A stretch of DNA of 64,000 bases from Guptibacillus hwajinpoensis (lineage in GTDB: Bacteria; Bacillota; Bacilli; Bacillales; Guptibacillaceae), in the NCBI RefSeq assembly GCF_020171785.1, contig NZ_JAIVAE010000004.1, forward strand, positions 62,001 to 126,000, given 5' to 3'. Position numbers and translations under genes: made by a program. Position 1 is the first letter of the stretch; every line of letters begins with the position of its first letter. Below the pieces are notes generated by a model that saw only the letters and a list, made by a program, of their open reading frames with translations, did no database searches and was not told the DNA's origin. This document shows positions 33,647 to 63,387 of this stretch, piece by piece.

Positions 33647-33668
33647 GCGGGTGCCTGTCACCACCCGC
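33647..33668. repeat. Small inverted repeat around GGTGCCTGTCACC
   Basis: GCGGGTG and CACCCGC form a 7-base stem around an 8-base loop; the core GGTGCCTGTCACC is the kind of short motif that recurs between genes in Bacillus genomes. TTCGCGGG is also repeated in tandem just upstream (33637-33651). I see no gene here. Confidence 0.45.
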
Positions 33669-33700: not shown

Positions 33701-33730
33701 TATTGGCTAATTTCTCAGGATATTGGCCAA
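33701..33730. repeat. Two-unit 20-bp-phased TATTGGCYAA repeat
   Basis: TATTGGCTAA (33701-33710) and TATTGGCCAA (33721-33730) are separated by exactly 10 bases, giving the same 20-base phase as the five-unit array at 62131-62220. It lies just before the ywdK/gerQ terminator. Confidence 0.75.
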
Positions 33731-33735
33731 AACAG

Positions 33736-33763
33736 AAAGCTGCCGGAATTCCGGCAGCTTTTT
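33736..33763. terminator. Bidirectional terminator between ywdK and gerQ
   Basis: AAAGCTGCCGG and CCGGCAGCTTT pair perfectly around AATT, with A and T runs on the outside. It can stop both convergent transcripts. Confidence 0.9.
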
Positions 33764-60920: not shown

Positions 60921-62063
60921 ATGGAGCTTGTATTTACGGAAGAGCAGAAGATGATGCAGAAAATGGTGCGGGACTTTGCGGAAAAAGAAATCGCCCCAAT
61001 CGTTGAGGAAATGGAAGAGACGGATCGCTTTCCACGCGAAGTGATCAAACGAATGGGCGAGCTCGGTTTAATGGGCATCCCGATTCCAGAAGCCTACGGT
61101 GGAGCGGAAATGGACTATTCGTCTTATATTATTGCGATTCATGAGCTCTCAAAAGTAAGCGCCACGGTTGGCGTAATTCTATCGGTTCATACGTCCGTTG
61201 GGACACTACCGATCCTAGCGTTTGGAACAGAAGAACAGAAAAAACGCTACATTCCGAAGCTTGCGACTGGTGAATACCTTGGTGCGTTCGCACTGACGGA
61301 ACCGAGTTCAGGTTCAGACGCAAGCAGCATGAAAACGCGCGCTGTAAGAGACGGAGATCATTACATTTTGAACGGCTCGAAAATCTTCATTACAAATGGT
61401 GGAGAAGCAGATACGTACGTCGCCTTCGCTAGAACGAATCCGGATGAAAAAGGAAGCAAAGGCGTAACCGCATTTATCATTGAGCGCGACATGCCTGGCT
61501 TTAGCGTTGGAAAGAAAGAGAAGAAAATGGGGCTACACGGCTCGAATACAGTGGAAATCATTTTCGAGAACTGCCGTGTACCTGTTGAAAATCGTCTTGG
61601 CGAAGAAGGGCAGGGCTTTAAAATTGCGATGGCGAATCTTGAAAGCGGTCGCATTGGAATTGCGGCTCAGTCACTTGGCATAGCGGAAGCCGCGCTAAAC
61701 TATGCGACAGCTTACGCAAAAGAGCGTCATCAGTTTGGGAAGCCGATTGGGCAGCATCAGGGGCTTGGTTTTAAGCTTGCGGATATGGCAACAGAAGTAG
61801 AGGCGGCAAAACTCCTAACCTATCGTGCAGCTGACCTGAAAAACCACGGAATCCCATGCATGCAGGAAGTCTCGATGGCAAAGCTCTTTGCATCGAAAGC
61901 TGCCGTGAAAGCTTCGATTGAAGCGGTTCAAGTATACGGAGGTTACGGCTACACGAAAGATTATCCAGTAGAACGCCTCTTCCGCGATGCAAAAGTATGC
62001 GAAATCTATGAAGGAACGAGCGAAATCCAGAAAATCGTCATAAGTCGGAACCTGATGAAATAA
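60921..62063 (+). CDS. mmgC: Acyl-CoA dehydrogenase (MmgC-like)
   Basis: A 380-residue FAD enzyme of the short-chain type: [54 protein letters not shown] and the catalytic base Glu in CEIYEGTSEIQKIVISRNLMK. It would oxidise acyl-CoA and pass electrons to ETF and then FadF. AGGAGGAACG precedes the ATG. It is paralogous to the gene at 62245. Confidence 0.93.
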   Translation: MELVFTEEQKMMQKMVRDFAEKEIAPIVEEMEETDRFPREVIKRMGELGLMGIPIPEAYGGAEMDYSSYIIAIHELSKVSATVGVILSVHTSVGTLPILAFGTEEQKKRYIPKLATGEYLGAFALTEPSSGSDASSMKTRAVRDGDHYILNGSKIFITNGGEADTYVAFARTNPDEKGSKGVTAFIIERDMPGFSVGKKEKKMGLHGSNTVEIIFENCRVPVENRLGEEGQGFKIAMANLESGRIGIAAQSLGIAEAALNYATAYAKERHQFGKPIGQHQGLGFKLADMATEVEAAKLLTYRAADLKNHGIPCMQEVSMAKLFASKAAVKASIEAVQVYGGYGYTKDYPVERLFRDAKVCEIYEGTSEIQKIVISRNLMK

Positions 62064-62068
62064 AGAAA

Positions 62069-62102
62069 AGCTGCAGTGACCGAGGGTCTGGTCACTGCAG
62101 CT
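62069..62102 (+). terminator. Stable hairpin between the two acyl-CoA dehydrogenase genes
   Basis: AGCTGCAGTGACC pairs perfectly with GGTCACTGCAGCT around an 8-base loop. No T-run follows (AGATCAG), so it may attenuate, protect or process the mRNA rather than end it. Confidence 0.55.
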
Positions 62103-62130: not shown

Positions 62131-62220
62131 TATTGGCCAAAAACCAATTATATTGGCCAAACTTCATTTTTATTGGCCAAATTCGAGATATATTGTCCAA
62201 AACCAACTTTTATTGTCCAA
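62131..62220. repeat. Five-unit, 20-bp-phased TATTGGCCAA array
   Basis: Units start at 62131, 62151, 62171, 62191 and 62211: three TATTGGCCAA then two TATTGTCCAA, each followed by 10 unrelated bases. The core TTGGCCAA is a perfect palindrome. The array ends 10 bases before the AAGGAG of the next gene. Phase is exact, about two helical turns. Same phase and unit occur at 33701-33730. Confidence 0.9.
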
Positions 62221-62244
62221 ACCACCAAAAAGGAGAGAAACAGG

Positions 62245-63387
62245 ATGAACTTTCAACTATCAGAAGAACATGAAATGCTACGGAAAATGGTGCGCGACTT
62301 TGCGAGGAAAGAAGTTGAGCCAACTGCAGCAGAGCGTGATGAAGAGGAGCGCTTTGATCGCAAGCTTTTTGATCAAATGGCGGAACTTGGCTTAACGGGG
62401 ATTCCGTGGTCAGAAGAGTACGGCGGTATTGGCTCCGATTATTTAAGCTACGTGATTGCGGTGGAAGAACTTTCGCGCGTATGTGCCTCTACTGGGGTAA
62501 CATTATCCGCTCATACCTCTCTAGCTGGTTGGCCACTTAATGCTTTTGGTACGGAAGAACAGAAGCAAAAGTTCCTACGTCCGATGGCGGAAGGGAAGCT
62601 AATGGGGGCTTACGGCTTAACGGAGCCTGGATCAGGTTCTGACGCTGGTGGAATGAAAACGACTGCGAAGCTTGATGGCGATCACTACATTTTAAATGGA
62701 TCAAAGATTTTCATTACAAACGGTGGTGAAGCGGAGATCTACATCGTGTTTGCTCAAACGGATAAAGAAAAGCGTCACAAAGGAATTACGGCCTTTATCG
62801 TTGAGAAAGGAACGCCAGGTTTCTCTATGGGTAAGAAAGAGAAAAAGCTCGGGATTCGTTCTTCACCTACATTAGAAATTATTTTTGAAGATTGCCGTGT
62901 ACCTGTTGAGAATCGTCTTGGCGACGAAGGGCAAGGCTTTAAGATTGCCATGAAGACGCTTGATGGTGGACGTAACGGGATTGCTGCTCAAGCTGTTGGA
63001 ATCGCGCAGGGGGCACTAGATGCGGCTACGGCGTATGCGAAAGAGCGCAAGCAGTTTGGTAAGCCGATTGGTGAGAATCAAGGCATTGGCTTTAAGCTAG
63101 CCGATATGGCTACAAAGATTGAAGCAGCTCGACTATTAACTTATCAGGCAGCATGGAAAGAAAGTCAGGGTCTGCCGTATGGTAAAGAATCGGCGATGTC
63201 TAAGCTATATGCCGGCGATATTTCAATGGAAGTGACGACAGAAGCGGTGCAAGTCTTTGGTGGCTATGGCTATACGAAGGATTATCCGGTTGAGCGCTAC
63301 ATGCGTGATGCGAAAATTACGCAAATCTATGAAGGTACAAATGAAATTCAGCGTCTTGTTATTTCAAGAATGCTGATGGCTGATTAA
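62245..63387 (+). CDS. acdA: Second acyl-CoA dehydrogenase
   Basis: A 380-residue acyl-CoA dehydrogenase closely like its neighbour: [54 protein letters not shown] and catalytic Glu in [22 protein letters not shown]. The 181-base gap before it holds a hairpin and the phased repeat array. ATG 62245 with AAGGAG upstream is the start; the in-frame ATG at 62173 lies inside the array and is rejected. Chain-length preference unknown. Confidence 0.93.

Follow-up and report, generated by a model that had tools for sequence, protein, structure and literature searches.

Within the window, i.e. the whole stretch of 64,000 nucleotides that was analysed, an array of short direct repeats occupies the gap between two acyl-CoA dehydrogenase genes. 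The features of this locus are the following.

60921..62063, + strand: upstream acyl-CoA dehydrogenase gene, 380 aa
62069..62102, + strand: hairpin AGCTGCAGTGACC...GGTCACTGCAGCT without a T run, behind the upstream gene and ahead of the array
62131..62220, + strand: five-unit array with an exact 20-bp period, units starting at 62131, 62151, 62171, 62191 and 62211
62131..62180, + strand: units 1-3, TATTGGCCAA, with the spacers AAACCAATTA and ACTTCATTTT
62191..62220, + strand: units 4-5, TATTGTCCAA; unit 5 is invariant among the listed orthologues
62231..62235, + strand: AGGAG ribosome-binding site, read from the sequence, 10 nt past the last unit
62245..63387, + strand: downstream acyl-CoA dehydrogenase gene, 380 aa

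We confirmed at 62131-62220 the arrangement given in the preliminary description, namely five 10-base units every 20 bases with differing 10-base spacers. The array comprises three copies of TATTGGCCAA and two of TATTGTCCAA, and no two of its four spacers, each 10 bp long, are alike. Tandem Repeats Finder scored a period of 20 at 75 and a period of 40 higher, at 104, thus neighbouring units are not fully equivalent. Orthologues of the array in related species keep the same five unit positions, and the hairpin at 62069..62102 showed no conservation in the G005 orthologue. The array ends 24 bp before the start codon (62245) of the downstream gene, which is an acyl-CoA dehydrogenase at class level, its scores lying under the curated equivalog cut-offs.

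A second array of the same family lies elsewhere in the window, with a module on either side.

33650..33662, + strand: head module GGTGCCTGTCACC, 5' of the second array and found at other members too
33701..33730, + strand: second family array, two units
33736..33763, + strand: terminator hairpin AAAGCTGCCGGAATTCCGGCAGCTTTTT, immediately 3' of the second array; the same module stands behind other arrays

This array has two units versus five in its G005 orthologue, and the difference in length is exactly 60 bp.

A scan of the 4.24-Mb assembly that contains the window gave 53 matches to the two-unit 20-bp pattern, with at most two mismatches allowed, and none to the reversed control, so that the counts lie above chance, the opposite of the outcome that the preliminary description had set beforehand as its refutation. 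Grouped by hand, these matches collapse to approximately 17 arrays. In 433 kb of the host genome the nearest unit spacings were exactly 20 bp in 30 of 31 cases and 21 bp in the remaining one, with all unit pairs on the same strand. Arrays of at least three units did not occur in any of 10 Markov shuffles of 680 kb, and the lone 8-mer TTGGCCAA, counted within the window, was by itself not clearly enriched. The strict pattern was present in 13 of the 14 genus genomes searched, with the reversed-pattern control near zero. The records that carry a name are those of Pseudalkalibacillus, Alkalihalobacillus macyae and Bacillus strains without a species name, and looser relatives of the arrays were found in Sutcliffiella, Alkalihalobacterium and Fictibacillus. 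Plasmid and phage records held no match to the window array. At one site (L143/L144, G000:C15 84-98 kb), the five arrays found inside 14 kb share the minus strand and adjoin consecutive paralogous genes for small lipoproteins.

The anatomy of the family was determined on 84 distinct arrays with at least three units, collected by an array finder that demands one exact unit per array and 8/10 matches in the others, so that some uniformity is built in. Exactly five units were found in 66 of these arrays and spacers of exactly 10 bp in 311/313 cases. The unit consensus is TATT[GA][GT]C[CT]AA, and five central 4-mers (GGCC 174, GTCC 86, GGCT 54, AGCC 48, AGCT 22) together account for 384 of the 397 units; T1 is fixed in 396/397 units and C7 in 395/397, which partly follows from the detection rule. 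The palindromic core to which the preliminary description had drawn attention is present as TTGGCCAA in units 1-3 of the window array and absent from units 4-5, and it does not hold up as the key feature, since the non-palindromic cores GTCC, AGCC and GGCT are common. Moreover, GGAC, the reverse complement of GTCC, occurred only twice among the 397 units, thus the unit has a direction and its palindrome is incidental. Both ends of the spacers are A+T-rich and their middle is mixed, thus the base composition switches between A+T and G+C every 10 bp over the whole 90 bp. On the 3' side, hairpins with a stem of at least 8 follow 29/80 arrays compared with 2/80 shuffled ones, and an AGAATnATTCT-like palindrome accompanies 18 arrays; on the 5' side, some members carry the module GGTGCCTGTCACC...TGTCGAA. 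Given these shared flanking modules at many members, the array may be one portion of a larger element.

Most of the G000 arrays examined, the window array included, have a counterpart at the same locus in G005. Comparison of 52 orthologous pairs at 12 loci revealed a divergence of 5.7% in units and 18.8% in spacers; unit positions 1, 2, 3 and 7 change in 0-0.8% of comparisons and mid-spacer positions in 31-41%. This shows that the orthologous copies are under purifying selection. Because the spacers are locus-specific, the conservation of the units does not stem from homogenisation between them. Unit number varies in 20-bp steps. The exception among the 14 genus genomes is G008, which has no such arrays: its acyl-CoA dehydrogenase locus has the same head and tail with a single unit in the middle, the citrate synthase/queC locus one unit and a third locus two. 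Furthermore, the bshC-mraZ gap is without an array in G008 and contains a composite insert of approximately 210 bp in G000. Strain RAR_GA_16 carries a 123-bp array-plus-terminator twice, 2.9 kb apart, with near-identity that stops abruptly at both borders. In the alignment of this pair (L121 2518/5418), neither inverted ends nor a duplicated target could be seen by eye.

Gene context was studied over 680 kb of G000 and 520 kb of G005, plus fetched loci. Using a home-made gene caller, we found a single array that overlaps a gene call, namely that of a small predicted gene. Once loci with similar flanks were merged, 28 remained, of which 12 lie in tandem gaps (6 sense, 6 antisense), 8 between convergent and 5 between divergent genes, and 3 are open-ended. 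The neighbouring genes, with protein identities read by eye from sequence, are functionally unrelated and include those for acyl-CoA dehydrogenase, citrate synthase/QueC, MFS and RND transporters, BshC/MraZ, aspartase, MprF and 23S rRNA methyltransferase/diacylglycerol kinase. Thus the window array does lie in an acyl-CoA dehydrogenase leader, as the preliminary description had it, but this position is incidental, as arrays stand in every type of intergenic gap, in both orientations and beside unrelated genes. In the complete genome G007, with the origin at coordinate 0 and a skew sign change near 2.3 Mb, approximately 21 arrays are present, most of them within 0.3-1.9 Mb and 4.2-4.4 Mb, and the stretch 1.86-3.26 Mb is free of them. 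Several are clustered, so that these positions are no clean test of origin bias. By hand count, 9 of the G007 arrays are co-oriented with replication and 12 run counter to it, which makes a polar KOPS- or Chi-like signal unlikely.

Intergenic repeats are usually regarded as debris or as hairpin-forming RNAs. The present arrays have a fixed geometry, recur throughout the genus, are conserved position by position, are independent of transcription direction, and have occasionally been copied or lost units. We consider it slightly better than an even bet (probability approximately 0.52) that they are a dispersed intergenic DNA element that lines up a putative sequence-specific host protein along one face of approximately 100 bp. 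Old orthologous copies hold their fixed positions while their spacers change, which argues for a function at the site itself; the indifference to transcription direction argues for an action as DNA, and the two-turn phasing together with the 10-bp rhythm in base composition fits protomers on one face. The putative protein would read each unit in double-stranded DNA, approximately five protomers would take adjacent places along one face of approximately 100 bp, and once docked they may form a rigid or wrapped nucleoprotein rod. The most likely role would be that of an architectural or boundary element, providing local bending, wrapping or insulation between genes, rather than an operator of a single pathway. 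The earlier proposal of selection for binding on one DNA face is thus favoured by the genus-wide counts, the rigid spacing, the position-specific conservation and the A+T/G+C rhythm, with binding itself putative. Against a protein platform weigh that G008 lives without the arrays, that copies have been duplicated with sharp borders, as could happen to a purely selfish element too, and that many members share flanking modules. The rigid helical geometry of this intergenic family, its preferred number of units and the clear purifying selection on it at scattered, unrelated loci point towards a DNA function in cis and a candidate DNA-binding protein, and G008 and its array-keeping congeners offer a natural comparison for finding the binder.

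A possible, though clearly less probable, explanation is that the arrays are a mosaic interspersed repeat or a non-autonomous mobile one (BIME/MITE-like), in which the units serve a transposase as its recognition part without benefit to the host. The RAR_GA_16 twins, whose flanks are without homology, speak for mobility, as do the composite insert at bshC-mraZ that is missing in G008, the existence of subfamilies with common tails (the terminator, the AGAATnATTCT palindrome) and a patchy occurrence across other genera. However, neither terminal inverted repeats nor an associated transposase were noticed, most of the G000 arrays examined sit at the same loci in G005, and a dead selfish copy should decay evenly, whereas same-locus copies in several species hold fixed positions as their spacers drift. 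In the best-supported model, mobility accounts for the dispersal of the arrays, not for their upkeep.

The readings as regulon, RNA element or Spo0A target are weaker than that of a DNA-binding array. Conserved, spaced sites, some of them in divergent promoter regions or directly 5' of a start codon, could be operator arrays through which a conventional transcription factor runs a regulon, but the neighbours are unrelated, and the orientation is mixed with 8 of the 28 loci between convergent genes; we rejected this unlikely reading on the gene content of the neighbours. It is slightly less probable still that the units act in the transcript as sites of protein binding, pairing or processing. 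This would agree with the excess of hairpins behind the arrays, and in other families the majority of arrays stand 3' of a gene on the same strand. Nevertheless, orientation in tandem gaps is balanced at 6:6, arrays also stand in divergent gaps, and at C8:148402 a terminator stands between the array and the gene upstream of it; RNA folding was not consistently better than in shuffles (z-scores -2.2 to +1.3), and Rfam covariance models gave no usable match, with sub-threshold matches only, all outside the array. The 0A box of Spo0A is TGTCGAA, one base off TGTCCAA. Units with TGTCGAA occur in one other family (G114) and TTTGTCGAA-like words stand beside some members, yet tandem 0A boxes are a very improbable explanation, as the GTCG core of TGTCGAA was found in 0 of the 397 genus units against 86 with GTCC, and the commonest core, GGCC, is even further from the 0A box.

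We found no matching described family. Mosaic interspersed repeats (BIME/bcr-like) and direct-repeat protein platforms (parC-like) come closest. The preliminary description had matched the element to no type, and we found no account of it in the open-access literature, which is weak evidence, the searches having covered Bacillus repeat families and literal unit and module sequences. Nearest in geometry is parC/ParR (PMC9426499) and nearest in genomic behaviour are the BIME/bcr1-type repeats (PMC3733652, PMC2267715). Like REP/BIME elements, some of which are bound by DNA gyrase in E. coli (PMC3733652), the arrays are short, dispersed, extragenic and modular, and often lie beside terminators. 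In contrast to the imperfect-palindrome (hairpin) REP unit, they are direct repeats arranged head to tail, phased rigidly at two turns, and lack a dominant hairpin; GTCC, AGCC and GGCT are not self-complementary and folding is inconsistent. With bcr1, a stem-loop-containing family of approximately 150-170 bp in the Bacillus cereus group (PMC3733652, PMC2267715), and with related MITE-like repeats they share intergenic repeats of approximately 100-200 bp in a Bacillaceae genome and signs of mobility, but they are phased direct repeats without a common fold. The plasmid parC centromeres of R1, pB171 and pSK41 are bound by ParR, and the pSK41 repeats are 20 bp (PMC9426499). ParR assembles along several direct repeats into a higher-order structure, and the geometry of the arrays would fit such an assembly by a putative protein. 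Unlike parC, which lies beside parM/parR on a plasmid, they are many dispersed copies at chromosomal loci beside housekeeping genes, with no adjacent parMR noticed and no plasmid match. Since the arrays fail a tested defining feature of REP units and of parC loci, they are filed under neither. A constant repeat with a varying spacer also recalls CRISPR, which is marked by flanking cas genes and spacers acquired from invaders, but here the units are 10 bp, their number is nearly fixed, and same-locus spacers are conserved between species instead of acquired, with no phage match.

Outside the genus, TGTCCAA units at intervals of 19-21 bp recur in several further families of the Bacillales, where five or six units and a 21-bp period are common and each family has its own flanking consensus; across genera these arrays are patchy. 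Their occurrence counts in favour of the protein-platform reading. We tentatively suggest, as a proposal more doubtful than the reading of the arrays in the genus, a Bacillales-wide, undescribed chromosomal nucleoprotein platform in which approximately five protomers of a putative protein would occupy 20-21-bp-phased TGTCCAA-type units at intergenic architectural or boundary sites, with the unit sequence differing slightly by family. Arrays in G164 look coding, and viral contigs with three TGTCCAA units were set aside, as on inspection they look like coding or unrelated repeats. Viral contigs L288, L290, L291, L304 and L307 carry a different repeat, TGTCCAAGTG(G/C), at 20-21 bp. In G190 the reversed control AACCTGT N12-14 AACCTGT matched 37 times, which suggests an unrelated phased array family; arrays of similar geometry but no relation thus also exist. 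The order-level search gave 62 pattern matches in G037, and approximately 46 TGTCCAA-type units with a 19-21 bp period stand in one array (L056, L043) of another Bacillales genus, probably G037.
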